In this document: positions 5,264-64,000 of the stretch, piece by piece
Layout: every line of letters starts with the position of its first letter
Position numbering within the stretch: the first letter of the stretch is position 1
Assembly (NCBI RefSeq): GCF_013363995.1
Contig: NZ_JABWGO010000006.1
Location: 62,001 to 126,000, forward strand
DNA length: 64,000 nucleotides
Reading direction: 5' to 3'
Source of the DNA: Nonomuraea rhodomycinica
Lineage (GTDB): Bacteria; Actinomycetota; Actinomycetes; Streptosporangiales; Streptosporangiaceae
Position numbers and translations under genes: made by a program
Notes under the pieces: generated by a model
What the model saw: the letters and a program-made list of their open reading frames with translations, nothing else
What the model was told of the DNA's origin: nothing
Database searches by the model: none

Positions 5264-5857
5264 GTGGACATGTCGCTACGTGCCGGAGTACGCACCGGAG
5301 ATCCGGCGGCCTTCGAGCAGCTCTTCGACGAGTGCTCGAAGGCCGTCTACAACCACGCCTACCGCCTGACCGGCGACTGGTCGGCGGCCGAGGACGTGAT
5401 GGCGCTGACGTTCCTGGAGGCGTGGCGGTTACGCGCCCGGGTGGACCCCGAGGGCGGCTCACTGCGGCCGTGGCTGCTCGGGATCGCCACGAACGTGGCC
5501 CGCAACACCCGCCGGGCCTCGCGCCGCCATGACGACGCGCTGGCCCGGCTGCCCAGGGGCGAGCCGGTGCCCGACTTCGCCGAGGAGGTGGTGGGCCGGA
5601 TCGACGACGCCGAGCGGCTGGCCGCCGTGCGGGAGGCGTTCGGGGGGCTGCGCCGCCACGAGCGCGACGTCTTCGCGCTGTGCGTGTGGGCGGGGCTCGA
5701 CTACGCGGAGGCGGCCGAGGCGCTGGGCGTCCCGGTGGGCACCGTGCGGTCGCGGTTGTCGAGGGCGCGGCGGAAGCTGGAGAGATTCGTGGAACCGCCG
5801 CCCGCGCCCCGACAGGTAGTAGGTGACCGAGGCCCCGCGAAGGAGGAGATCCGATGA
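5264..5857 (+). CDS. ECF-type RNA polymerase sigma factor
   Basis: This 197-residue sigma factor directs RNA polymerase to a small regulon. Region 2 is seen in DPAAFEQLFDECSKAVYNHA and the following YRLTGDWSAAEDV, and region 4 in ERDVFALCVWAGLDYAEAAE with the DNA-contacting VPVGTVRSRLSRARRKL. The GTG at 5264 is used here; an ATG at 5270 is an alternative, and neither has a strong ribosome-binding site. Its stop overlaps the next gene by 4 bp (ATGA). That partner has one membrane helix and no recognisable zinc-binding anti-sigma motif. The same pairing recurs at 34.8-36.2 kb. Confidence 0.9.
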   Translation: MDMSLRAGVRTGDPAAFEQLFDECSKAVYNHAYRLTGDWSAAEDVMALTFLEAWRLRARVDPEGGSLRPWLLGIATNVARNTRRASRRHDDALARLPRGEPVPDFAEEVVGRIDDAERLAAVREAFGGLRRHERDVFALCVWAGLDYAEAAEALGVPVGTVRSRLSRARRKLERFVEPPPAPRQVVGDRGPAKEEIR

Positions 5858-6456
5858 CCTGGCACGACGAACGCGATCTTCCCGAGGGCCGTCACCGGCT
5901 GCTCAAGGAGTTCGTGATGACCGAGATCGACCGCGAGGCCGGGCAGAGCGTTCCGCGCCGCCGCCTGCCGCGTCCCGCCGTCCTGGCGCCCGTGCTGGGG
6001 CTCGCCGCCGCGGCGGCCGTGGCCGTCCCGCTGTTCGTGGGCGGCGGCAGCCCGGCGTACGCCGTCACCGACAACCCGGACGGCACCGTCCGCGTGCAGA
6101 TCAACGAGCTCCGGGACGCGGACAAGCTGGAGGCCGACCTGCGGGCCAAGGGCATCAACATGGTGGTGGACTACATCCCTCAGGGCAAGAAGTGCAGCCC
6201 GCAGCCGCGCGCCGCGCGATTCCTGCCGGATGAGCAGGCCCCCCTGATCGCCATGCTGACCCACGACGACGGCGAGGCGACCTTCGTCATAGACCCACGC
6301 GTGATCAAGGACGGCCAGACGGGCGTGCTGGAGTTCACCGTCTTCAAGGCCCCGGACGGGCCGGCGGCGGTGACGCCCGTGTGGGCCCGGGTGGCCGAGG
6401 GAACCGTCGCCGACTGCACCCTGGTGGACACCACGGAGCCGCCGCTGGCGCACTAG
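5854..6456 (+). CDS. One-TM protein coupled to ECF sigma factor (CU044_5270-like)
   Basis: This 200-residue protein has a short charged cytoplasmic start (MTWHDERDLPEGRHRLLKEF), one membrane helix at about 42-64 and an extracytoplasmic domain. It matches the layout of the CU044_5270 family, usually encoded right after ECF sigma genes in actinomycetes. It likely tethers or senses for the sigma factor, but no HxxxCxxC anti-sigma zinc motif is present, so that is inference. The segment LRAKGINMVVDYIP after the helix resembles LRARGLDITLDVVP in the second module at 34.8 kb. Its ATG overlaps the sigma stop. Confidence 0.75.
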   Translation: MTWHDERDLPEGRHRLLKEFVMTEIDREAGQSVPRRRLPRPAVLAPVLGLAAAAAVAVPLFVGGGSPAYAVTDNPDGTVRVQINELRDADKLEADLRAKGINMVVDYIPQGKKCSPQPRAARFLPDEQAPLIAMLTHDDGEATFVIDPRVIKDGQTGVLEFTVFKAPDGPAAVTPVWARVAEGTVADCTLVDTTEPPLAH

Positions 6457-6469
6457 GGCGCGGCCGGTT

Positions 6470-6487
6470 CAGGGCCCGCGAGCCCTG
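6470..6487. terminator. Bidirectional hairpin between convergent genes
   Basis: CAGGGC, a 6-nt loop and GCCCTG form a perfect stem between the ends of two convergent genes (stops at 6456 and 6506). There is no T run, which is usual for terminators in GC-rich actinomycetes. Confidence 0.5.
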
Positions 6488-6505
6488 GCGGGGTGACGGC
6501 AGGGT

Positions 6506-7063
6506 TCACGAGATGCGGGACGCCTTCTCGGACGTCATGGCGAACTTCGTGCCGTTCCACTTGTAGGTCTGGCGGACGACCAGGTCGGGGCAGCAGTTGG
6601 GGGCCCGGTCGCTGACCACCTTGCCGCGCAGGCGCACCAGCCCGTTCTGGATGGTGACCTTCTGGGACTTGAAGTAGCGGTTCCTGCCGAGCTCGCCGAT
6701 CAGGCGGGGGGCCGAGCGCTTGGAGGCGCCGTCGTAGACGAAGGCGATCAGCGGATTGCTCGACGTCGGGCTCGGGCAGGACGACACGACCACGGTCTCG
6801 CGCCGTCCGTCACGCGTGAGGTCGCCCACAGCGGCGACGCGGGCGTGCACGACATACCAGGTGTCGTTCGGCCCCGGCTTGGGGCAGTCCAGCGCCCGCG
6901 CCACCACGGCCGTCCAGTCGACCCCGTCAGCCGTCATACTGTCCGCGGTGGCGGTGCCCGGGGCGAGGATCGCCGCCAGCGAGGTCGCGATGGCGATGAT
7001 CCCCGCGCCGGCTCGAAGCCGGCGGGCCGTCGGGCTGCTCAAGTGTTCCGTGCGTGAGTTCAC
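6506..7063 (-). CDS. Secreted protein of unknown function
   Basis: This is a 185-residue exported protein. I chose the GTG at 7063 because AAAGGA lies just upstream, although the spacing is tight; the frame remains open to 7153. The N-terminus has a basic stretch then a hydrophobic Sec signal (AGIIAIATSLAAILAPGTATA) with an AxA cleavage site. The mature part has four Cys, in DCPKPG, SSCPSP and APNCCPDL, and GDLTRDGRRETVVV resembles an FG-GAP or VCBS-like calcium loop. I do not recognise a family with a known function. It is convergent with the sigma module and probably monocistronic. Confidence 0.7.
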   Translation of the reverse strand: MNSRTEHLSSPTARRLRAGAGIIAIATSLAAILAPGTATADSMTADGVDWTAVVARALDCPKPGPNDTWYVVHARVAAVGDLTRDGRRETVVVSSCPSPTSSNPLIAFVYDGASKRSAPRLIGELGRNRYFKSQKVTIQNGLVRLRGKVVSDRAPNCCPDLVVRQTYKWNGTKFAMTSEKASRIS

Positions 7064-7143
7064 GATCCTTTGGACGCATGGAACGCCGGAGATGTTTGCC
7101 CGGGACGTCACCGACGCCGGAGACCGCCGGCGTGCCGGGCCCG

Positions 7144-52219: not shown

Positions 52220-52333
52220 CGTCCGCGCCCCGAAAGTGATCCATTTGTCGGTCCGGGCCGCTAGCGTTCCCGCAACGTCGCGACGGAGGTCGTGGCGTTT
52301 CGGCATCCCCATGACCTCTGAAAGGCGGGCGCG

Positions 52334-53194
52334 TTGGGTTGGCTGGCGGCGGGCGACGGATATGAGGTCGCCCTCATGGAAGGCCGGGTGGTGGCACGCT
52401 CCACCAGCGGCCGGGCGGCGGGGCGGCAGCTCAAGTCCCTGCCCAGGACCCTGCGTGAGCATCCCGAGGTCGACCGGCTGCGCCGGCTGGCCGAGTGGCT
52501 CGACCGGCACGCGGCGGCGTGCGTCGCGCAGGTGGACACCTGGATGGTGTCCTCCCTGCCCGTCCCGACCGGGCTGCTGGCCCGGGTGTGGCCGGACGAG
52601 GCGTGGCAGGCGGCGCTGCGCGACCTGGCGGTCGTCGGCGACGACCCCGACGAGGTCGGGTTCCTGCGCGACGCCACCGCCTCGGGCGAGCTGCGGGTGG
52701 TCAACCTCGACGGCGAGACCGTCCGGCTGTCCCCGGAGACGGTGACGCTGCCTCATCCGGTGCTGCTGCCCGACCTGGACGATCTGCGGGAGTTCGCCGC
52801 CGAGCTGGGGGTGACGCAGAAGGTGGAGCAGATCCACCGGGCCACCTGGCGCAAGCCCGCCGAGGTGAAGCCGCGGGCGACGCGGGTGACGGAGTTCGCC
52901 GGCGGCAGGTACGCCTCCCGGTTCGGGCTGGCGGCCCGGGCCACGCAGCTCGGCTACAAGGTGTCCGGCGGCTACGCCACGTGCCGGGTCCGCGATGGGG
53001 GACGCGTCGCGGAGGCGGCCGTGTGGATCGGCGAGCCGTACTGGGACAGCGAGATGGAGACCGGCGACCTCACCTGGCACGACCAGGACGGCAGGTCGCT
53101 GCCGCTGTCCGAGGTCGGGCCGGTGGCCTGGTCGGAGGGAATGCGGATGGCCGCGGCGCTGTACGCCGGCCGGCAGATCGAGGAGGGGTCGTGA
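52334..53194 (+). CDS. DUF4132-like protein, first gene of a MoxR/VWA operon
   Basis: This 286-residue protein ends in a region (about 140-280) that resembles the DUF4132/MolR (YehI) core: DLREFAAELGVTQKVEQIHR, ATWRKPAE, FGLAARATQLGYKVSGGYAT. The first part is helical. GAAAGG lies 8 nt before the TTG at 52334. Its stop overlaps the next gene (GTGA), the first of a series of coupled junctions through this operon. It is shorter than E. coli YehI, so the assignment is by partial pattern and operon context. Confidence 0.68.
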   Translation: MGWLAAGDGYEVALMEGRVVARSTSGRAAGRQLKSLPRTLREHPEVDRLRRLAEWLDRHAAACVAQVDTWMVSSLPVPTGLLARVWPDEAWQAALRDLAVVGDDPDEVGFLRDATASGELRVVNLDGETVRLSPETVTLPHPVLLPDLDDLREFAAELGVTQKVEQIHRATWRKPAEVKPRATRVTEFAGGRYASRFGLAARATQLGYKVSGGYATCRVRDGGRVAEAAVWIGEPYWDSEMETGDLTWHDQDGRSLPLSEVGPVAWSEGMRMAAALYAGRQIEEGS

Positions 53195-56100
53195 CGGGCA
53201 CGTCGCAGCCGACGGCGGGAGAGACGGCGCGGGAGCTGCTGAAGGCGGGGGCCGTGCTGCCGCCCGGCGCCGAAGGGGCGGGCGAGAACGCGGTGCCGCT
53301 GGTGGCCCGCGCCTACCGGCACCCTGGCCTGGACGATCGGGTGGTCGTCCGGCTGGTGGCTGACGAGCTGCTCGCGGCCGAGGACCTGGCGGCCGGGTTC
53401 CTCGGGCTGGAGCCCGAGGGCGAGCCCGAGGTCGTCGGCGTCGGCCAGCGCCGCTCGCTCGGCTTCCCCGAGTGGGTGCTGGTACGCCACCCCGGCGACG
53501 GCCACCAGGCGCTGGCCGTCGTGCCCGAGCTCGAACGCATCGCCCGGCAGGCCAAGTCCAAGCCCAAGGCCGCGCTCGACGCGTACCAGGAGCTGGCCGG
53601 CCGGCTCGGCGCGTCCGTGCCGCACTTCCTGCCCACGTTCTACGAGCAGGCCGGCCGCGTCTTCACCGGCGTGGAGAACGCCACCTACGCCGGCCAGATG
53701 TTCTCCCACGCCCGCCGGGCGGAGGCGCAGTACGGGCTCGACGTGGACGAGGACCGGCTCGACGCCGTGTTCCTGGAGTTCGCGCTGGCGGGGGCGCTGC
53801 CGGTCAAGGTGCTGTCCGGGTACGCCAGGGAGCTGGCCGGCCGCCTGCCCGCCGACGAGGCGCTGCGCCGCTTCACCCGGCTCTGCCTGCGGCGGACCGC
53901 GGGCGGGCTGCCGCCCTCGTCCCAGATGGCGCAGGACCTGCGCAAGCTCGCCCGCGCCGCGAAGACCGACGCCGACGTGGCCGAGCGCGCCTACCTGGCC
54001 GAGTTGATCGCCCTGCCGGCCACCCTGCGGGCCGCCACCGGCTGGTGGAAGTCGCACGCGCCCGCGATCGCCGCGCTCGCCCAGGACGACCCCGCCGTAC
54101 GCGCGACGCTGCTGGAGATCATGCCGGAGGCCAGGGACCACGACATGCCGGCCGTGTGGCTGGAGATCCTGGAGTCGTCGGGAGCCGGCGGCGACCTGGC
54201 CGAGGGCGCGCTGCGGCCCGCCGACGGCGTCGCCGGCTGGCTGACCCGCTTCCTGCGGTTCCGCGACAGCGCGTACGGGCGGGCATCGCGCCTGCCCGGG
54301 CTCTACGCGCTCGTCGAGCGGCTGGGCGGCCCGCTGCGGGCCGAGCTGACCGCCGCCGGACGCACGCTGGGCGCTCCGCAGGACGTCGACCTGCTCGACC
54401 TGCTGCTGTCCGTGGACGTGCCGGTCGCCGACCCCGGCGAGCACCACTGGCTCTGGCTGGAGCAGTGGGCGGACGGCGAGGGACGGCGCGACCTGGTGGC
54501 GCTGGAGGCCGACGGCCGCTTCCGGGCCTCGTTCCGGTCGTCCGCCTACCGGTTCAGCGACGACGAGAGCGGCCGGCGCGCCATCCGGCTGCTGGCGGAG
54601 TCACCGGGCGGGCGGCCGATGCTGGCCGAGTGGATGCGCGAGGTGGCGCGGCGCTCGTCGGCCGCCGGGCTGCCCGACCTGCCCGACGCGATGCGCCGCC
54701 TGGCCTGGCTGCCCGGCGAGGCGCTGACGCTGGCCGAGGAGGAGGTGCGCGAGGCCGCCGCCGCGGACGTCGCCGAGGTGCTGGCAGGGACCCTGCGCAC
54801 CGGGCTGATCGACGAGTACGGCTGGCCGGCCTGGGACGACGCCGTCGCGACCCTCGTGCCCCGGGAGAGGCCCCAGGACATGGTGGTCGCCGACGCCTGG
54901 CCGTACGTGATCGCCGCCGGGCCCGGCCAGGTTCGCGTGCTCGGCCCGGAGGGGACCGTGCTCACCCACGACCTGCGCGTCCCGGCGAACGACACGTGGG
55001 GCGAGCACGGCTTCCACTACGTGGACGGCGAACTGCTGGTCTACTGGCGCTCGCGGTCCCGCGACTACCGGCTGCGCGGCTACTGGCACACCGCCCCCGA
55101 CCGGATCCTCGACCTGGAGGGCGACACCGGCGTCCGGGGCGTCAAGCTCGACTACCACCACGGCGACGACCCCGTCAGCCTGGCGCTGCCCGGCGGCGGC
55201 CGCACCACCGGCCATGCCGTGCTGCACCGGGGCGACACGGCGGTGCCGTCCGAGCGCGCGGTGATCAGTGACGGGACCTCGTTCTGGGTGTGGTCCTGGG
55301 AGGAGAGCGGCGGCACCACCGTCGGCTGGTACGAGTTCGACCCGGTCAGCGGGCGGCGGGGCCGCATGGGCATGCCGGGGTTCCTCGCCGACGCGCTGCG
55401 CGACGCACCCGCGGGCAGCGAGTTCGTGACCGGGCGGCTGCTTCCCGCCCCCTCCGACACGCCCACGCCTGTGGGCACGCCGGTGGGCGGCGTGTTCGGC
55501 TGCCGGGTGGTGCGGCTGCCCGACAGGTCCGTACGGTACGAGGACGCCGGCGGGATGAGCGTCACCGTGCCGGACGGCGCCGGGATCCCCGTGTCGGCGC
55601 TGAGGTTCCCCGGCGCCGAGCGGCCCTGCGCCGTGATGCGCGGCAGCTACCGGGTGGAGCTGGTCGGTCCCGACGGTGTGCTCACGGCCGTGATGAAGAC
55701 CGACCGCGAGCCCGGCTCGTTCGGCAAGGGCACGGTCATCCTGCCGCCGGTGCGGTACTGGACGTACTTCCGGCCCCGCGACCCCGAGGGGTCGGCCGTG
55801 CTGCGCGGGATCGACGGCGACACCGCGGCTTCACTGCTCAAGGCCGCCGAGTCCGCCGGCGGGACCGCCGCCGGGTCCGCCGGTGGCGGGAAGGCGTCCG
55901 ACGGGGACGACCTGGCCGCCCAGATCCGGGCGCTGCTGCCGGGCGTCACCGACGACGCGCTGGTGGCCGGCATCGCCGGGGTCGCCCGATTCGCCGCCCA
56001 CCAGCAGGCCGCGCTGCGTGGCGTCGCGGCCAGGCTCGGGGAGGCGCTGGCGGGCGGCGGCCGGTCGCGGGGGCCCGCCGGGCCCTCCGACGACGTGATC

Positions 56101-58119
56101 GTCGAGGCGCTCAGCGGCCTGAACGTCCACGCCGACGGCTACTGGCACCGCACCGAACGGGACGGCCTCGTCCGCCAAGTCCAGGCCGTCGGCGAGCTGC
56201 TGTCGGAGTCGGACGGCGGCCAGGCCGCCCCGCCCGCCCGGACCCATCTGGACCTGCCAGAACTGCCCGGCTCCCGCCTGCGCTGGCTCGCGATGCTCGA
56301 CCACGCGCCCGCCGTGGCCTTCCGCGCGGCGTCCGCCACGACCGGCCCCGAGCACCGCGCCACCCTGCGGACGCTGCTCGCGGGGCTGCGCGAGCACGGC
56401 CTGCCGCTGTCGGCCGCCCCCGACCGGTGGCGGCGGATGACGGTGCAGCTCGACGAGCGGCACGTGACCGACCTCAACGGCGAGCACCGCGACGGCACGT
56501 GGGTGGGGCCGCTGCCCCTGGGCGGCGGGGCGTTCGTGCTCTTCACGACCATGCTCGACCACAGCGGTTCCCGGGTCACCTGGGACGCGCTCTTCCACGA
56601 CCCGCGGGGCCGGTTCGAGGTGCCGCCGCCGTACACCGTCACCTCCTCCTCCCCGGTCGGCGCGAACCTGCCGTCCGGCTGGGCCGAGGCGTTCCTCGCC
56701 GAGCTGGAGGCGCGCGGGCCGGCGCCGTGGCGGGCCGAGGCGGCGGAGGAGTTCGCCCGGCTGACCGGCGTCTCCCGGACGCTCGCCGGCCTGGTGGTGG
56801 CCGGGATGCCGGACGTGGACTCGTACCAGCGCGGCTTCCTCGCCAAGGAGGCGCGCGCGATGCTCGGCGTGAAGGTGGCCGACGCGGCGGTCGCCCGCGA
56901 CCAGCTGCGCGACCTGCAGGCCGGGGTGCGGCAGGCCGTCGTCTCGGCGCTGCTGCCGGCCGACCCGGTCCGGCTCTGGACCGACGGTCCCGACGTGGCC
57001 GCCGCGGCCGAGGCGTGGAACGCCCGGGTCGGCCGGCAGGTGGCCGTGCCCGAATGGCTGGTCGCCGAGGCGGGCCGCGCGGTCAGGGCGGAGTGGGACA
57101 CGGGCCGCGCGCTGCGCGCCCTCATCGACCCGGCCGCGACGCCCGAGCTGAGCCGCGACCTGTCCTGGTCCGTCCAGGGCGACCGCGTGCGCCCGGTGGA
57201 CGGGCGGGCGGCGGGGTTCGACGCGGACACGCTCGTCTCCGTCGTCCCCATGGCGGCGTGGCTGGCCCACCGGCTGCCCGTCGGCGACCCGGTCCGCGCG
57301 GGGCTGCCCGCCGCGCTGGCCGCCGTCCGCGACCGGCTGGCCGCGCCCGGGTTCGTGCTCGACCTCGACCGCTACGTCAACCTGCCCGAGTACGTGCGGG
57401 CCGCGGGCGCGCCGACCGAGACCGGCGAGGGGTTCGTCCGGTACGGGAGCCTCATCCTGCCCACCGCCGACGACCGGCCCTCGCCCGGCATCCGGGTCGC
57501 CCTGCTCGACGGGGACGACCCGTACCTGCGGGCGCTGCTCGGCATGGAGCGGCCGTTCGCCGCCGAGACCGCCCTGCGCCTGGCGCGGGACCCGCGCTTC
57601 GCGGCCCTGCTCGCCGGCGCCGACGGCCCCGCCCGCGCCGACGGCCTCGTTCGCGGCGAGGAGGAGCAGTGGTGGCCGCAGGACCCCACGCGTTCCGTCC
57701 CCGGCCTGGTCGCCGAGGCGGCCGCGGCGCACGGGCTCGGCGCGGACGCCGCGGCCCTCTACCTCATGCTCCTGGCCATGCCGGACCCGACCGACCGCAA
57801 CGTCGCCCGGTGGACCGGCTGGAAGCCCGCCCGGCTCAAGGCGGCCCGGACTGAGCTGGCCGCCACCGACCTCGTCGTCGAGGCCGACAGGCGGCGGGCC
57901 GGGCGCTCGCTGTTCCTGCCCGGCGGATGGACGGACCAGGCCGCGCCCCGCCTCCCCGTCGAGCAGTGGAAGCTGTCCATGTTCCCGCCGTGCCCGGGCG
58001 CGCCCCTGGTGCCGCTCGAACCCGCCGCCGACCTGTACGCCAGGGCGTGGGCACGGGTACGCGAGGGCGACCTGCCCCGCTACGAGGAGCTGAAGGTCAG
58101 GCGCGGACGGCGCCGATGA
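53191..58119 (+). CDS. Very large (1642-residue) helical-repeat protein of the MoxR/VWA operon
   Basis: The frame starts at a GTG overlapping the previous stop. The protein begins with helical, Ala/Leu-rich repeats (ETARELLKAGAVLPPGAEGA, KPKAALDAYQELAGRLGASV) and then beta-rich stretches with WPYVIAAGPGQVRVLGPEG and RGYWHTAPDRILDLEGD, resembling a propeller. An AT-poor Gly/Ser linker is near 890-905. The end is basic (KVRRGRRR). I do not recognise a catalytic motif or a named family; homologues occur next to MoxR and VWA genes in actinomycetes. It may be the scaffold or target-recognition subunit. Confidence 0.78.
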   Translation: MTGTSQPTAGETARELLKAGAVLPPGAEGAGENAVPLVARAYRHPGLDDRVVVRLVADELLAAEDLAAGFLGLEPEGEPEVVGVGQRRSLGFPEWVLVRHPGDGHQALAVVPELERIARQAKSKPKAALDAYQELAGRLGASVPHFLPTFYEQAGRVFTGVENATYAGQMFSHARRAEAQYGLDVDEDRLDAVFLEFALAGALPVKVLSGYARELAGRLPADEALRRFTRLCLRRTAGGLPPSSQMAQDLRKLARAAKTDADVAERAYLAELIALPATLRAATGWWKSHAPAIAALAQDDPAVRATLLEIMPEARDHDMPAVWLEILESSGAGGDLAEGALRPADGVAGWLTRFLRFRDSAYGRASRLPGLYALVERLGGPLRAELTAAGRTLGAPQDVDLLDLLLSVDVPVADPGEHHWLWLEQWADGEGRRDLVALEADGRFRASFRSSAYRFSDDESGRRAIRLLAESPGGRPMLAEWMREVARRSSAAGLPDLPDAMRRLAWLPGEALTLAEEEVREAAAADVAEVLAGTLRTGLIDEYGWPAWDDAVATLVPRERPQDMVVADAWPYVIAAGPGQVRVLGPEGTVLTHDLRVPANDTWGEHGFHYVDGELLVYWRSRSRDYRLRGYWHTAPDRILDLEGDTGVRGVKLDYHHGDDPVSLALPGGGRTTGHAVLHRGDTAVPSERAVISDGTSFWVWSWEESGGTTVGWYEFDPVSGRRGRMGMPGFLADALRDAPAGSEFVTGRLLPAPSDTPTPVGTPVGGVFGCRVVRLPDRSVRYEDAGGMSVTVPDGAGIPVSALRFPGAERPCAVMRGSYRVELVGPDGVLTAVMKTDREPGSFGKGTVILPPVRYWTYFRPRDPEGSAVLRGIDGDTAASLLKAAESAGGTAAGSAGGGKASDGDDLAAQIRALLPGVTDDALVAGIAGVARFAAHQQAALRGVAARLGEALAGGGRSRGPAGPSDDVIVEALSGLNVHADGYWHRTERDGLVRQVQAVGELLSESDGGQAAPPARTHLDLPELPGSRLRWLAMLDHAPAVAFRAASATTGPEHRATLRTLLAGLREHGLPLSAAPDRWRRMTVQLDERHVTDLNGEHRDGTWVGPLPLGGGAFVLFTTMLDHSGSRVTWDALFHDPRGRFEVPPPYTVTSSSPVGANLPSGWAEAFLAELEARGPAPWRAEAAEEFARLTGVSRTLAGLVVAGMPDVDSYQRGFLAKEARAMLGVKVADAAVARDQLRDLQAGVRQAVVSALLPADPVRLWTDGPDVAAAAEAWNARVGRQVAVPEWLVAEAGRAVRAEWDTGRALRALIDPAATPELSRDLSWSVQGDRVRPVDGRAAGFDADTLVSVVPMAAWLAHRLPVGDPVRAGLPAALAAVRDRLAAPGFVLDLDRYVNLPEYVRAAGAPTETGEGFVRYGSLILPTADDRPSPGIRVALLDGDDPYLRALLGMERPFAAETALRLARDPRFAALLAGADGPARADGLVRGEEEQWWPQDPTRSVPGLVAEAAAAHGLGADAAALYLMLLAMPDPTDRNVARWTGWKPARLKAARTELAATDLVVEADRRRAGRSLFLPGGWTDQAAPRLPVEQWKLSMFPPCPGAPLVPLEPAADLYARAWARVREGDLPRYEELKVRRGRRR

Positions 58120-58146
58120 ACCCCCCTATCTGTGTGAGGACTCCCC

Positions 58147-59319
58147 ATGACCATGACCGATGACCAGGCGACGGCGGCCCCTCCGGATCGCCAGGTGCTC
58201 GCGGCCGAGGAGCGGTACGCGACCGAGCTGGCCTTCCTGGCCGCCCACGACGACGGGCCGCGCCCGCCCGGGTGGCTGCTGACCCCGCGGGCGGTGGTGA
58301 CGTTCATCTGCGGCAGCGGCGGCGAGACGCTCGAGCTGCCCAAGGAGCGGCAGAGCGACGGCGTCCCGAAGCGCCTGAAGCTGGAAGCCAAGTTCGTGGG
58401 CGAACGCTCGCTCGTCGAGCGATGCGTGGTGACGCTCGCCGGCGAGCGCGGCCTGCTGCTCGTGGGCGAGCCCGGCACCGCCAAGTCGATGCTGTCGGAG
58501 CTGCTGGCCGCCGCCGTGTGCGGCACCAGCGACCTCACCGTCCAGGGCACGGCCGGCACGACCGAGGACGCCTTCCGCTACGGCTGGAACTACGCCCTGC
58601 TGCTGGCCCAGGGCCCGTCCCGGAGCGCGCTGGTGGACTCGCCGGTGCTCACCGCCATGCGCACGGGACGGGTGGCCCGGGTGGAGGAGATCACCCGCTG
58701 CCTGCCCGAGGTGCAGGACGCCCTGGTGTCGATCCTGTCCGACCGGCGGGTGAGCGTACCCGAGCTGGCCGGGACCGCGGACGCGCAGGTCGCCGCGGCG
58801 CCCGGGTTCACCGTGATCGCCACCGCCAACCTGCGCGACCGCGGCGTGTCCGAGATGTCGGCGGCCCTGAAGCGGCGGTTCAGCTTCGAGACCGTGGGGC
58901 CCATCGCGGACGCCACGGCGGAGACCGCGCTGGTCCGCCGCCAGGCGACCGCGGTGGTGCAGCGGGCCGGGGCGGCGTTCGGGGTGGACGACGCCGTGCT
59001 GGAGGCGCTGGTGACGGTCTTCCGCGACCTGCGTACCGGGCGGTCCGCCGAGGGGTGGGACGTGGAGCGGCCCGGAACCGTCATGTCCACCGCTGAGGCG
59101 GTGCAGGTCGCCGCCTCGCTGGGGGTGGCGACGGCGTACCTGCCGGCGGGTGACGTGCTCGACCTGGTGCCCGGCCACCTGCTCGGCGTGGTCCGCAAGG
59201 ACGATCCCGCCGACCACGGGCGGCTGCTCGGCTACTGGGACGGGCCGGTACGGCGGCGGGCGGAGGACGGTTCGGCGATGTGGCGGCGGCTGTGGGACCT
59301 GCGGGAGAACCTCCGGTGA
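58147..59319 (+). CDS. MoxR-type AAA+ ATPase (YehL-like)
   Basis: This 390-residue ATPase has Walker A at 107-114 (GEPGTAKS). The Walker B position reads RVARVEEIT (176-182), so the usual DE pair is EE. Sensor 1 is FTVIATANLRDRG and the arginine-finger region is MSAALKRRFSFETVGP. DALVSILSDRRVSVPEL is the MoxR helix-2 insert region. GTGAGGAC precedes the ATG at 58147; an ATG at 58153 is possible. Such ATPases act with a VWA protein as a chaperone or remodeller; here the VWA gene follows, overlapping by 4 bp. Confidence 0.9.
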   Translation: MTMTDDQATAAPPDRQVLAAEERYATELAFLAAHDDGPRPPGWLLTPRAVVTFICGSGGETLELPKERQSDGVPKRLKLEAKFVGERSLVERCVVTLAGERGLLLVGEPGTAKSMLSELLAAAVCGTSDLTVQGTAGTTEDAFRYGWNYALLLAQGPSRSALVDSPVLTAMRTGRVARVEEITRCLPEVQDALVSILSDRRVSVPELAGTADAQVAAAPGFTVIATANLRDRGVSEMSAALKRRFSFETVGPIADATAETALVRRQATAVVQRAGAAFGVDDAVLEALVTVFRDLRTGRSAEGWDVERPGTVMSTAEAVQVAASLGVATAYLPAGDVLDLVPGHLLGVVRKDDPADHGRLLGYWDGPVRRRAEDGSAMWRRLWDLRENLR

Positions 59320-62300
59320 CCCCTGACCCCAGGGAGGCGCTCGCCGCGCTGGCCGGCTGCGCCCGGCCGTACCTGATCGGAGTACGGCACCACAGCCCGG
59401 CGCTGTCCGTGGTCCTGCCCGAGCTGCTGGAGGCGGCCGACGCGGAGGTGGTGTGCGTCGAGCTGCCCGCGGACTTCCAGCCGTGGCTGGAACACCTGGC
59501 CGCCCCCGAGACCGTCGCGCCGGTCGCGCTGGCGGGGACGGGGGCGGACGGCCGGCTCGGGTTCTACCCGTTCGCCGACTTCTCGCCGGAGCTGGTGGCC
59601 GTCCGGTGGGCCTGGAAGCGTGGGGCGGAGGTGGTGTGCTGCGACCTGCCGCTGTCGGACGGGGACTGGCACGCGCCCGGCCTTTCCGAACCGGGCCCTG
59701 GGGCGGCGGTGCCGAGGCGGCGGTCCTTCGCCGACGCGCTGGCCGCGTCCGGCACCGGTCGCGAGGGCGACGACATGTGGGACCGGGCCGTGGAGGTCCT
59801 CGCCCCCGAGAGCGAGCCCGAGGCCGTGCGCCGGGCCGCGCTCGGCGTCGGCTGGGCCCTGCGCAGGGACGCGGAGGAGTCGGGCGGCGTACCGGCCAGG
59901 GACCTGGCACGTGAGGCCCGCATGCGGCGCGTCATCACCGAGGCCGCGACCGGCGGCCGGCGCGTCGCCGCGGTGATCGGCGCCTTCCACGCCCCCGCCC
60001 TCCTGGAGCCGGCGACGCCGTCGGCCACCGGAGAGCGGCCCGATCCTCGGCCGGAGACGGTCGTCTCGCTCGTCCCGTACGCGTTCGACCTGCTCGACTC
60101 CCGCTCCGGCTACCCCGCCGGCATCCGGGACCCCCGCTGGCAGCAGGCGGTGTTCGAGGCCGGCGGCGATCCCGACCGGATCACCGACGCCGCCGCCCGC
60201 GCCATCACCGACCTGTGCCGGGAGCTGCGCCAGGCGGGCCACACCGCCGGCACGGGAGAGGCCGCCGAGACCCTGCGCATGGCCTGCGACCTGGCCCGGC
60301 TGCGCGACCTGCCCGCCCCCGGCCGCGGCGAGCTGCTGGAAGCGGTGACGACCGTCCTGGGCCAGGGCGAACCCCTCGGCCGCGGCCGGGCACTGGCCCG
60401 CGCCCTCGACACCGTCCTCGTCGGCACGCTACGCGGCCGGACCTCGCCCGGCACGCCACGCTCGGGCCTCGGTCCCGCCGTGGAGGCCGAGCTGAAGGCG
60501 CTGCGGCTGCCCGGCCCGGACGATCCGGAACGCCGGGAGATACGGCTCGACCCGCTCCGGTCCGGCCTCGACGCGCGCCGCGAGATCCTGCTGCGCCGCC
60601 TGCTCACCTGCGGCGTCCCCTACGGCGAGCCGATCGAGGTGACCGGCACGGGCGACGCCTCCGCGCTCACCACCAGGTGGCGGCTGGCCTGGTCCCCGGC
60701 GGTCCCGGCCCTGCTCGACCTGGCGGGCGTACGCGGCGTGACCCTCGCGCAGGCCGCCGCGGGCACGTTGCGGGAGACGTACCGGCGAGAGTCCGCGGAC
60801 GGCGGGCCCACGTGCCGGCTGGTCCTCGACGGCCTGCGCGCGGCGGCGCAGTGCGACCTGCCCGAGCTCGTCGCCGACCGCCTCGCCGAAGCCGCCGTCG
60901 TGCTGCCCGCCACCGCCACCCCGGCCGAGCTGCTGGACGCCCTCGACCTGCTCGAAGCCCTCCGCCGCGCACACCTCCCCGGCACCACGCCGCAGGCCCG
61001 CCGGCAGGCTGTCGAGCTGGCCGGCACCCTGCTGGAGGCGGCGATCCGGGCGCTTCCGGGCCTGGCGGGCAGCGACCGGCCCGAGGACGCCGCGGCCCTG
61101 GTCGCGCTGGCCGTCCGGAGCGGCGATGACCGCCTCGGACTGCGGATGGACGGCATGCTGGACGAGCTGGCCCGTACGGCGTCGCCGCTCATGCAGGGCG
61201 CGGCGCTGGCGGCCCGCGTCCTGCTGGACCTCGACGGGGCGGACGCGCTGGGAGCCCGGGCGGCGGGCTGGATCGACGCCGCCACCGGCCCGGACGGCCG
61301 CCGCCGCCTCGGCCGCCTGCTGGCCGGCGTGCTGACCGCCGCCGGACCGCTGCTCGAATCGGCTCCCGCGGTGCTCCATCCCCTCATGGACCGCATCGAC
61401 GACCTGGCCGACAACGAGTTCCTGGACCGGTTGCCGGCGTTGCGCGGCGGATTCGACACGCTGACGCCGGCGGCGCGCACGCGACTGCTCGGCACGGTGT
61501 CCGAACGGCTCGGCGACCGGCCCGACCTGTCGCTGGAGGCGTCACCCGAACTGCTCGGCCTGTGGACCGCGGCCGACGCGGCGGCCCTGGCCGTCCTGCA
61601 CTCACTGGGGTTGCCCGTGCAGGCGGAGGAGCCCACGCCGCCCAGCGAGAAAGAGGAGCGGAAACCCCGACCCGAGGTGTCAGCCATGCTGGCGCCGGTC
61701 GATCGGTGGCGGCTGCTGCTCGGCCGCGAGTCGCGGAAACTGCCGTCCCAGGCCCGTGCCTACGCGCGCGCCCTCGACGAACTGTACGGAGCCGGACGCG
61801 GCGAGGGCTCGGACGACTTCGACCCCGCGAACGGCGGCGACACCGGCGGCCAGGGGCAGTCGTTCCCGACGGCCCGGGAGTGGGCCGAGGAGCTGGAGGC
61901 GCTGTTCGGGGCCGACGTCCGCGAGGAGGTGCTGGCCGGCGCGGCCGACGCCGGACGTGTCGACGTGCTGGCGGAGCTGGACCCGGCTTCCGTCCGGCCG
62001 TCCGTCGAACTGCTGACGTCCGTGCTGTCCCTGGCGGGGGGCATGCCCGAGCAGCAGCTCGCCAAGTTGCGCCCGCTCGTGCGGCGCCTGGTCGCCGAGC
62101 TCACCCGCGAGCTGGCCACCAAGCTGCGCCCGGCGATGACCGGGCTGGCCAACCCACGCCCCACCCGCCGCCCCGGCGGCCCCCTGGACCTGCCGCGTAC
62201 CCTGCGCGCGAACCTCCAGCACAGCCGCCGCCTGGACGACGGGCGGCTGGTGGTGGTGCCGGAACGACCGGTGTTCAGCACGCGGGCGCGTCAGGAGGCC

Positions 62301-62807
62301 GACTGGCGGCTGATCCTCGTGGTGGACGTGTCCGGATCGATGGAGGCGTCGGTGGTCTGGTCGGCACTGACCGCCGCCGTCCTGGCGGGGGTGCCGACGC
62401 TGTCGACCCACTTCCTGACGTTCTCCACGCAGGTGATCGACCTGACCGACCAGGTGACCGACCCGCTCTCGCTGCTGCTCGAAGTGCGGGTGGGCGGCGG
62501 CACGCACATCGCGGCGGGCCTCGCCCGGGCGCGCTCGCTGGTGACCGTGCCCAGCCGGACGCTCGTCGTGGTCGTGAGCGACTTCGAGGAGGGCGGTCCG
62601 ATCGGCGGGCTGCTCGCGGAGGTGCGCGCCCTGGCGGGTTCCGGCGTACACCTGCTGGGTTGCGCCGCCCTGGACGACGGCGGGGCGCCGCGTTACTCGC
62701 TGCCCGTCGCCCAGCAGCTCGTCGCGGCCGGGATGCAGGTCGCCGCGCTCAGCCCGCTCGCCCTCGCCCGCTGGGTGGGCGACCGCCTTCGTGGAGAGAA
62801 CCGGTGA
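59316..62807 (+). CDS. Fusion of DUF5682 (YehM-like) with VWA domain (YehP-like)
   Basis: This 1163-residue protein opens with YLIGVRHHSPALSVVLPELL and VCVELPADF, diagnostic of DUF5682, and ends with a VWA domain. The metal-dependent adhesion site is complete: DVSGS at D1004-S1008, Thr in VGGGTHIAAGL and Asp in VVVVSDFEEGG. In E. coli these are separate genes, yehM and yehP. The GTG at 59316 overlaps the ATPase stop. Its stop overlaps the SWIM gene (GTGA at 62804). It should be the adaptor that couples the MoxR ATPase to its substrate. Confidence 0.88.
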   Translation: MTPDPREALAALAGCARPYLIGVRHHSPALSVVLPELLEAADAEVVCVELPADFQPWLEHLAAPETVAPVALAGTGADGRLGFYPFADFSPELVAVRWAWKRGAEVVCCDLPLSDGDWHAPGLSEPGPGAAVPRRRSFADALAASGTGREGDDMWDRAVEVLAPESEPEAVRRAALGVGWALRRDAEESGGVPARDLAREARMRRVITEAATGGRRVAAVIGAFHAPALLEPATPSATGERPDPRPETVVSLVPYAFDLLDSRSGYPAGIRDPRWQQAVFEAGGDPDRITDAAARAITDLCRELRQAGHTAGTGEAAETLRMACDLARLRDLPAPGRGELLEAVTTVLGQGEPLGRGRALARALDTVLVGTLRGRTSPGTPRSGLGPAVEAELKALRLPGPDDPERREIRLDPLRSGLDARREILLRRLLTCGVPYGEPIEVTGTGDASALTTRWRLAWSPAVPALLDLAGVRGVTLAQAAAGTLRETYRRESADGGPTCRLVLDGLRAAAQCDLPELVADRLAEAAVVLPATATPAELLDALDLLEALRRAHLPGTTPQARRQAVELAGTLLEAAIRALPGLAGSDRPEDAAALVALAVRSGDDRLGLRMDGMLDELARTASPLMQGAALAARVLLDLDGADALGARAAGWIDAATGPDGRRRLGRLLAGVLTAAGPLLESAPAVLHPLMDRIDDLADNEFLDRLPALRGGFDTLTPAARTRLLGTVSERLGDRPDLSLEASPELLGLWTAADAAALAVLHSLGLPVQAEEPTPPSEKEERKPRPEVSAMLAPVDRWRLLLGRESRKLPSQARAYARALDELYGAGRGEGSDDFDPANGGDTGGQGQSFPTAREWAEELEALFGADVREEVLAGAADAGRVDVLAELDPASVRPSVELLTSVLSLAGGMPEQQLAKLRPLVRRLVAELTRELATKLRPAMTGLANPRPTRRPGGPLDLPRTLRANLQHSRRLDDGRLVVVPERPVFSTRARQEADWRLILVVDVSGSMEASVVWSALTAAVLAGVPTLSTHFLTFSTQVIDLTDQVTDPLSLLLEVRVGGGTHIAAGLARARSLVTVPSRTLVVVVSDFEEGGPIGGLLAEVRALAGSGVHLLGCAALDDGGAPRYSLPVAQQLVAAGMQVAALSPLALARWVGDRLRGENR

Positions 62808-64000
62808 ACATGTCGCCCTCTTTGCCGCCGTCTTTGCCGCCGTCTTTGCCACCGGTGGCGCCGCACGTGGTGGCGGCGGCCGTGGAAGGACTCACCTCCC
62901 GGCTGCGGAAGAAGCTGGACGCGGCCGTCGCGCAGTACGCGGCCCTGCCGGTCGCGGTGGTGGACGGGGAGGGGGTGCGGATCACGTGCGGCGAGGACGC
63001 GGTGGTCACGCTCTCGCCCGGTGCTTCGGGCGTGGTCGCGGAGGAGGGCCAGGCACGGTGCGGTTGCCTGCTCGCGCCGAGATGCCTGCACCGGGCGGCG
63101 GTGCTGAGCGCGTGCCCGCTGGCGGACCCGACGCCCGTGGAGCCGGCCGCTCACGACGCTGAACCGCCGTCCACAGCGGAACCGCAACCCGCACTGGAAC
63201 CGCCCTCCGCCCCGGAATGTGGGTCCATCCCGGAACGCCCCTCCACCCCGGAACATCCGTCCACAGCGTCACCTCCGGAGCGACCGGTGGCGGCGCCCGC
63301 TGGAGGACCCTCCTCCACGTTGACGGCGGCACAGGTGACGGCCGCGGCGGGACTGTGGGCCGCCGGGACGGCCGTGCTGGCGGCCGGGGTGTCGGCAGCG
63401 GGCGCCGTGCCACAGGCCGAGCTGCTCCGCGCCGCCCACACCGCCCGCCTCGCCGGCCTGCCCAGGGCCGAGGCCGCCGCCCTCCGCGTCGTACGAGGGC
63501 TGAGGTCGGCCCGCGAACAGCGCGTCGGCCACCGCCTCTCGGACCTCGTGTCCGCCCTTCGCGAGCTGCTCCTCATCTCCGGCCGCCTGGCCGCGGGCGA
63601 CCCCGACCCGGCGCTGACCGGCACCGTCCGGCGCGCGTACGAGCAGGGCGGCAGCCTCCGCGTGCACGGCGTCTTCAGGGAGCCGGTGATCAGCGCGACG
63701 GGCTACGGCGGCGTGGTCACCCACGTCGTCGCGCAGGACGGCCGGTGGTTCTCGGTCGCCGACGTCAAGCCGGGCGGCGCGGCCCGCGCCCGCGGCGCGG
63801 CCACCGCGAGCGTCGCGATCGGCTCGGCCACGCTGAACCACGCGCAGCTCGCCAGGTCGGGCCTGCTGATCGTCGCGGCCACGATCTCCCCGGACGGCCG
63901 GCTCGGGGCGGGAAGAGGCGTCCGCGCCACGCCGGTCGCCGGCATGCCGTGGTCCGAGGGACCCGTGGGCGCCCTGCTCGCCCGCCCGCTGGCCGAGCAG
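62804..64000 (+). CDS. SWIM zinc-finger protein (YehQ-like), 3' end beyond window
   Basis: The frame starts at GTG 62804 over the previous stop and is open for 399 codons to the window edge, so it is incomplete. The N-terminus has three copies of SLPP (12-bp unit), then helices and the SWIM motif CGCLLAPRCLH, with C86, C88, C94 and H96 in the CxCxnCxH pattern. An acidic, Pro-rich linker is rich in EPPS/PERPST (about 110-165). The rest is helical and beta-rich (RVHGVFREPVISATGYGGVV). SWIM fingers bind DNA or proteins. It is the last visible gene of the MoxR/VWA operon. Confidence 0.82.
   Translation, partial: MNMSPSLPPSLPPSLPPVAPHVVAAAVEGLTSRLRKKLDAAVAQYAALPVAVVDGEGVRITCGEDAVVTLSPGASGVVAEEGQARCGCLLAPRCLHRAAVLSACPLADPTPVEPAAHDAEPPSTAEPQPALEPPSAPECGSIPERPSTPEHPSTASPPERPVAAPAGGPSSTLTAAQVTAAAGLWAAGTAVLAAGVSAAGAVPQAELLRAAHTARLAGLPRAEAAALRVVRGLRSAREQRVGHRLSDLVSALRELLLISGRLAAGDPDPALTGTVRRAYEQGGSLRVHGVFREPVISATGYGGVVTHVVAQDGRWFSVADVKPGGAARARGAATASVAIGSATLNHAQLARSGLLIVAATISPDGRLGAGRGVRATPVAGMPWSEGPVGALLARPLAEQ

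Follow-up and report, generated by a model that had tools for sequence, protein, structure and literature searches.

What do the five genes at the end of this stretch of the Nonomuraea rhodomycinica genome (64,000 nucleotides, hereafter the window) do, and when are they switched on? They encode a short DUF4132 protein, a giant protein, a MoxR ATPase, a fused DUF5682-VWA protein, and a SWIM protein. A preliminary description of the sequence had considered a role in defense or repair to be possible. We found strong regulatory support for the DNA-damage side of this suggestion, in the form of a predicted promoter of the RecA-NDp/PafBC type, and no support from PADLOC for the defense side.

Organization of the operon

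The five genes lie on the same (+) strand at 52334-64885, as judged from gene calls and Pfam. Extending the sequence past 64000, as the preliminary description had proposed, completed the SWIM gene: the operon ends at window-equivalent 64885, which is 885 bp outside the window. The first gene (52334..53194, +) has a TTG start and encodes the short DUF4132 protein of 286 amino acids (PF13569, E = 1.4e-29). It shares a GTGA overlap with the gene for the giant protein (53191..58119, +; 1642 amino acids), which is conserved in the 79 loci that we fetched. These are followed by the MoxR AAA+ ATPase (58147..59319, +; 390 amino acids; AAA_5, E = 2e-37) and by a protein of 1163 amino acids (59316..62807, +) that corresponds to YehM plus YehP in one chain, in which Pfam identifies DUF5682 at residues 34-904 (PF18934, E = 1e-206) and VWA_CoxE at residues 933-1154 (PF05762, E = 1e-65). 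Set against the definition in PMC7159879, the VWA domain is at the C-terminus of the chain with DUF5682 before it. The last gene (62804..64000, continuing to window-equivalent 64885, or L003:14885; +) encodes the SWIM zinc-finger protein of 693 amino acids, which we identified by Pfam and by motif: the Pfam match is sub-threshold (E = 0.018), and CxC..CxH is present in 53 of 53 relatives. There is a GTGA overlap at every junction but one, the exception being a 27-bp gap between the giant and MoxR genes (58120-58146), which confirms the earlier account of these junctions.

The residues expected of a working ATPase and of a metal-dependent VWA domain are intact. In MoxR, the arginine finger is in place, and the Walker A, sensor 1, and ALKRRF motifs are preserved in 70-71 of 71 relatives. 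The MIDAS of the VWA domain (62112..62777, +) is conserved as DxSxS (63/63 relatives), GGGT[DHN]I (62/63), and SDF (63/63).

On the same strand and 55 bp after the SWIM gene is a gene for a 991-amino-acid NACHT NTPase (L003:14940-17915, equivalent to 64940-67915 of the window). We considered it as a sixth subunit and rejected this, since we found it beside the operon only in the window's genome and at none of the other copies. Further downstream (L004, C66:131501-142000), the coding GC bias is weaker and there is a probable frame for a cytosine-C5 DNA methyltransferase (5715-7070); this is perhaps a mobile or restriction region.

Conservation of the arrangement

When a collection of genomes was searched with an alignment of the giant, 387 places were confirmed, and we retained 79 loci. 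These belong to Nonomuraea, Streptomyces, Streptosporangium, Kitasatospora, Micromonospora, Catenulispora, and others, and a second Nonomuraea genome (G027) has a near-identical giant gene (89%). A DUF4132 gene accompanies the giant in 77 of the 79 loci and a SWIM gene in 66, and contig ends account for most of the absences. MoxR is present in 71, again with contig ends as most of the exceptions, so the giant's homologues are not scattered over random loci without MoxR and VWA genes, which was the outcome named beforehand as a refutation. The YehM-like and YehP-like proteins had been described as one chain, and this is general: DUF5682 and VWA share one reading frame in 62 of 62 loci. The NTGA overlaps are also kept (75/77, 71/71, and 65/66 pairs), with the giant-MoxR junction as the exception (only 2/71). 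Because the order recurs in 79 loci from other genomes, with these overlaps and this fusion, the five-gene arrangement is far beyond chance. The 230 flanking genes fall into 171 clusters, which indicates that the five genes form a self-contained unit.

MoxR is missing at three giant loci (L071, L088, and L105). At L071:9129-24823, one DUF4132 gene is followed by three tandem giant genes, with no MoxR within the locus. In a second family (five loci, L036-L040), a single orphan protein of ~1620 amino acids joins DUF4132 (PF13569, E = 9e-11) to a giant homologue, and these genes have neither a MoxR gene in the vicinity nor a PafBC-type motif. Contrary to what had been claimed, the giant is thus not strictly unique to the five-gene arrangement. 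The single chain in L036-L040 argues that DUF4132 and the giant work as one unit. Together with the translational coupling and the co-inheritance of the genes, this fusion supports the earlier proposal that the operon makes one complex or pathway.

In G010, an IS607-type-like element (by reading, a TnpB-like and a serine-recombinase-like gene; L029:13386-15172) separates the DUF5682-VWA gene from the SWIM gene, and a caspase-like-Hsp70 fusion gene is tail to tail with the operon of G023 (L031:2404-4602).

A predicted DNA-damage promoter

Upstream of the operon, at 52245..52268 (+), is TTGTCGGTCCGGGCCGCTAGCGTT, a predicted DNA-damage promoter of the RecA-NDp/PafBC type that we identified by motif match and conservation. 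In a de novo search upstream of DUF4132, the commonest 9-mer was TTGTCAGTG (45 of 77 loci), and a TAgcgT-like element comes 8 bases after it. A spacing of N6 after the 9-mer was rejected, and N8 fits. The strict motif, TTGTC[AG]GT-N9-TAnnnT, is found in 58 of the 77 loci, and 20 rounds of dinucleotide shuffling yielded none; 73 of the 77 have at least a looser form (mean of 0.05 in the shuffles). The position is nearly always ~90-110 bp before the DUF4132 start, and the strict motif occurs nowhere else in the 3.6 Mb of these loci, counting both strands. In three of the four divergent loci tested that have this arrangement (L207, L208, G033, and G056), there is no motif match.

The genes behind this motif in the window's own genome indicate what kind of promoter it is. 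The strict 24-base form has only four matches in 9.6 Mb, upstream of ligA, a DEAD-type helicase gene, the operon, and a DNA polymerase III beta-like (dnaN-like) gene. The looser form has 34 matches, compared to two for the reversed pattern, and the genes downstream include recA, uvrA, uvrB, uvrC, ligA, polX, a dnaE-like gene, an AlkZ-like glycosylase, and exonuclease-GIY. (Of these targets, uvrA, uvrB, uvrC, ligA, polX, and AlkZ were identified by Pfam and dnaE by reading; recA was assigned by the place of the motif, 86 bp before the RecA domain match.) The same genome has adjacent pafB-like and pafC-like WYL genes between pafA-like and tatA/tatC-like genes (pafA and tat by reading). From these DNA-repair targets and the pafBC-like locus, we conclude that the motif is of the RecA-NDp/PafBC kind. 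The letters TTGTC(R)GT...TAnnnT, which we take to be the RecA-NDp/PafBC consensus, are validated by the recA, uvr, lig, and pol targets. Overall, the prediction that the operon is under a DNA-damage promoter of this type is well supported. The motif is also associated with a gene for DUF2201, a putative metallopeptidase (L144:1555-2964, window's genome).

We also searched for LexA boxes. One-mismatch matches to GAACN4GTTC upstream of the operon occur in 9 of 77 loci, as against 4.4 by shuffling, which is no clear signal. There was no convincing LexA box upstream of the E. coli yeh genes.

A family of MoxR-DUF5682-VWA operons

Of 297 genomes sampled from the class, 85 have DUF5682, and several copies per genome are common. 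Among the loci that we read, there are four arrangements, and MoxR, DUF5682, and VWA are common to all of them. Type A is SWIM-DUF5691-MoxR-DUF5682-VWA and is found in Deinococcus, Methylosinus, and actinomycetes; copies in Rhizobium and Hymenobacter have no gene annotated as SWIM. Type B is DUF4132 (often with WGR)-MoxR-DUF5682-VWA-SWIM, as in E. coli yeh, Iodobacter, and actinomycetes. (One type B copy, at L200:4759-5877, is interrupted by a TnpB-like gene.) Type C, with a short DUF4132 protein plus the giant, MoxR, fused DUF5682-VWA, and SWIM, is the window's operon. Type D (L204-L206) has two uncharacterized proteins, then VWA-MoxR-DUF5682. The window's genome contains type A (C88), type B (C44), and type C.

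In phylogenetic trees of MoxR and VWA, C, A, and D are each a single group with full support; the VWA tree has one misread row (C_L207, with an internal stop and a very long branch), and only its main groups are used. B and C group together in the MoxR tree (98/95), which places the window's type with the Yeh type. A quick tree of DUF5682 recovers all four types as groups, with a C clade fully supported by SH-aLRT. The best reading is that the MoxR-DUF5682-VWA core is constant and that a large module is exchanged: DUF5691 in type A, WGR-DUF4132 in type B, and the short DUF4132 plus the giant in type C.

The promoter motif extends to other types. It is present in 14 of 20 type A operons (0.015 by shuffling) and near the start in 2 of 7 type B operons. 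The type B copy in the window's genome is without the strict motif and has only the shifted TTGTCGGTC-N9-ATACTC, a variant in Nonomuraea copies. The three type D loci have one loose match and one near-match.

Two members of this family were already known from other bacteria. E. coli yehI-(K)-L-M-P-Q has the same order, DUF4132-MoxR-DUF5682-VWA-SWIM, as the window's operon; this likeness had been noted, and we found it in E. coli K-12, with homologous MoxR, DUF5682, and VWA proteins. There are two differences: YehM and YehP are separate chains in E. coli, and YehI is one long protein, whereas the window has a short DUF4132 protein and a giant without profile similarity to it. As in Yeh-type systems, the MoxR, DUF5682, VWA_CoxE, and SWIM genes are co-directional. 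A long WGR-DUF4132 protein (YehI/MolR) was not found in the operon, whose only DUF4132 protein is the one of 286 amino acids. We therefore file the operon as a variant of the Yeh-type systems that is not of the YehI type.

The other is ddrTUVWX of Deinococcus, which is among the most radiation-induced genes, has the RDRM of the IrrE/DdrO system upstream, and is of unknown function (PMC5552922). SWIM comes first and the CoxE-like VWA protein last (PMC5552922), and ddrTUVWX matches type A by gene order, by product names, and by way of the D. taeanensis operon. The D. taeanensis operon has the gene order of ddrTUVWX, and its MoxR shares 71-73% identity with the MoxR of actinomycete type A operons. 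Upstream of it, at -37, is a palindrome-like site with five mismatches to what we take to be the RDRM consensus (2 of 500 shuffles did as well), which is only suggestive of an RDRM-like site. Also, DRA0166 of D. radiodurans, which has DUF4132, goes up upon depletion of DdrO (PMC8533742). Type A and type C share the MoxR-DUF5682-VWA core, SWIM, and DNA-damage-type promoters, in both phyla (PMC5552922). They differ in that type A has DUF5691 instead of DUF4132 and the giant, has SWIM in front, has DUF5682 and VWA unfused, and forms a separate clade.

Predicted structure of the giant protein

The giant has no sequence match in Pfam, PADLOC, NCBIfam, or PDB. We considered it as a homologue of the long DUF4132 proteins and found no profile similarity. 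We modeled it with AlphaFold2 from 51 sequences in two parts, residues 1-890 (pLDDT of 88) and residues 875-1642 (pLDDT of 87, mostly helical). The models predict an alpha-helical solenoid at residues 101-555 (53491..54855, +; mean pLDDT of 88), whose structural matches are weak and generic (Get4/TPR-like; best Z of 12.3, 3.6 A over 144 residues). At residues 565-836 (54883..55698, +), a succession of strands suggests a beta-propeller-like domain, with low-ranking Foldseek matches such as LGI1-EPTP and BamB. The C-terminal half had no confident Foldseek match, which does not in itself point to a new fold. Within its most conserved part, residues ~1496-1577 (57676..57921, +) form a tentative winged-helix-like domain, whose best matches are winged helices; it resembles a MarR-like chain over 78 residues (Z of 6.3, 2.8 A, below the tool's safe level). 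The giant is thus predicted to consist of a helical solenoid, a beta-propeller, a further stretch of helices, and, with weak support, a winged helix.

A proposed role and its alternatives

We propose, with about an even chance of being right, that the operon encodes a DNA-damage-inducible MoxR/VWA remodeling machine, with a large module that is swapped from one type to another. The regulation is well supported; the molecular task we infer. DNA damage would activate a PafBC-type activator, which would turn on the promoter at 52245-52268, as the motif strongly suggests. The five proteins would then be made together, through the translational couplings that are seen in the sequence, and would form a complex. 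DUF4132 and the giant are probably one unit, given their fusion elsewhere, and might provide a scaffold of helical solenoid and beta-propeller, perhaps with a winged helix as well. Both this unit and the SWIM protein could touch nucleic acid; for the giant, contact with DNA is suggested by a weak fold match (Z of 6.3). By analogy with CoxD/CoxE, RavA/ViaA, and similar pairs, the intact metal-dependent site of the VWA domain may allow the DUF5682-VWA chain to grip a client and pass it to the MoxR ring. ATP-driven remodeling might then assemble or dismantle a damage-related nucleoprotein complex. The CoxD/CoxE and RavA/ViaA chaperone pairs likewise join an AAA+ ATPase to a VWA partner (VWA_CoxE family), but the window's operon adds DUF5682, DUF4132 and the giant, and SWIM, and no client enzyme is in the neighborhood. 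A bolder claim, which we consider possible and would sooner doubt than accept, is that MoxR-DUF5682-VWA operons are widespread and unrecognized DNA-damage-response machines, in at least two phyla and several paralogous types, with exchangeable client modules, and that the window's type, with its 1642-amino-acid scaffold of solenoid, propeller, and winged helix, works directly on DNA that is damaged or on nucleoprotein complexes that have stalled.

That the promoter is of a DNA-damage type is no proof of a function in repair, and the main rival is defense against phages or plasmids, with the DNA-damage regulon as the alarm: infection by a phage or the entry of foreign DNA would induce the operon, the giant's propeller would sense the invader, and MoxR/VWA would license the response. 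MoxR, VWA, and a large third component are also found in the ternary conflict systems, some with beta-propellers (VMAP, iSTAND, FtsH, beta-propeller; Kaur et al. 2020, PMC7159879), and the giant is likewise predicted to contain a propeller. The giant is sporadically distributed (its C-terminal half is in 8 of 296 genomes in an even sample of the phylum) and is sometimes on large plasmids; furthermore, the NACHT gene directly follows the operon in the window's genome, and the caspase-Hsp70 gene is beside G023's copy. However, we found no VMAP, iSTAND, FtsH, or effector domain in the operon, its propeller is not on the VWA chain, and its MoxR matches the bpMoxR family below the curated cut-off (22.5 versus 27 bits). 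None of the five proteins has a meaningful PADLOC match. Among the matches listed (25 of 44 families, led by kinase-type models), no PADLOC family is matched by more than two of the 93 proteins from the flanks. Conservation is uniform over the five genes, with no variable effector among them; the flanks, which are unrelated to each other, are not defense islands, and the NACHT gene is not conserved at other copies. Type A even has a core-like location, beside sucCD-like genes, in three Streptomyces-type copies that we read. We consider defense unlikely.

The remaining alternatives keep the regulation and change the task. The operon might be a general chaperone for damaged or aggregated proteins, instead of working on nucleoprotein, since solenoids and propellers such as those predicted here are generic protein-binding folds and MoxR ATPases act as chaperones (PMC3893208); the promoter, however, is of the type that controls DNA repair genes in this genome, and we find this rather improbable. 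A role in repairing RNA or rescuing ribosomes during genotoxic stress, with SWIM and DUF4132 on RNA and MoxR/VWA remodeling RNA-protein complexes, is very unlikely. A PLD-helicase-DUF3427 gene and the RNA-repair genes prfH-rtcB do follow the operon in two close Nonomuraea (L027:14924-19991 and L032:3-4984), two RlaP nucleotidyltransferase genes and a prokaryotic RING protein are beside G033's copy (L034:1226-5114), and in D. deserti radiation also induces a gene of the RtcB family (PMC5552922), but such neighbors are limited to two lineages and are absent within ~10 kb at the other loci. Maturation of a metalloenzyme or cofactor, either CoxD/CoxE-like or in line with the "molybdate regulator" label of MolR/YehI, would explain the damage regulation as a reflection of oxidative stress. 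The VWA domain belongs to the CoxE family, known MoxR/VWA pairs mature metal enzymes (PMC7159879), and the DUF4132/WGR family bears the MolR label (PMC8533742). Against this, no enzyme recurs beside the operon (the 171 clusters from 230 flanking genes), and the molybdate genes of D. radiodurans are not co-responsive with the DUF4132 operon (PMC8533742), which leaves maturation with little probability.

The gene set itself is a variant of a known, uncharacterized kind; what is new is the regulatory evidence for placing this kind in the DNA-damage response, together with a description of how its exchangeable large module is built. The literature searched contained no mention of DUF5682 or DUF5691, and neither yeh in E. 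coli nor ddrTUVWX in Deinococcus has a known function. The promoter gives the family a direct and testable link to the DNA-damage response. A DNA-damage promoter logic common to two phyla, in each under its own regulator (PafBC-type or DdrO), shows where a function should be sought. The RecA-NDp promoter has been described as extending to other Actinobacteria (PMC8223512). Our loci include candidate RecA-NDp promoters in Streptomyces, where an initial motif search, published in a study of LexA in S. venezuelae, reported that the mycobacterial PafBC motif seemed not to be conserved (PMC9380542).
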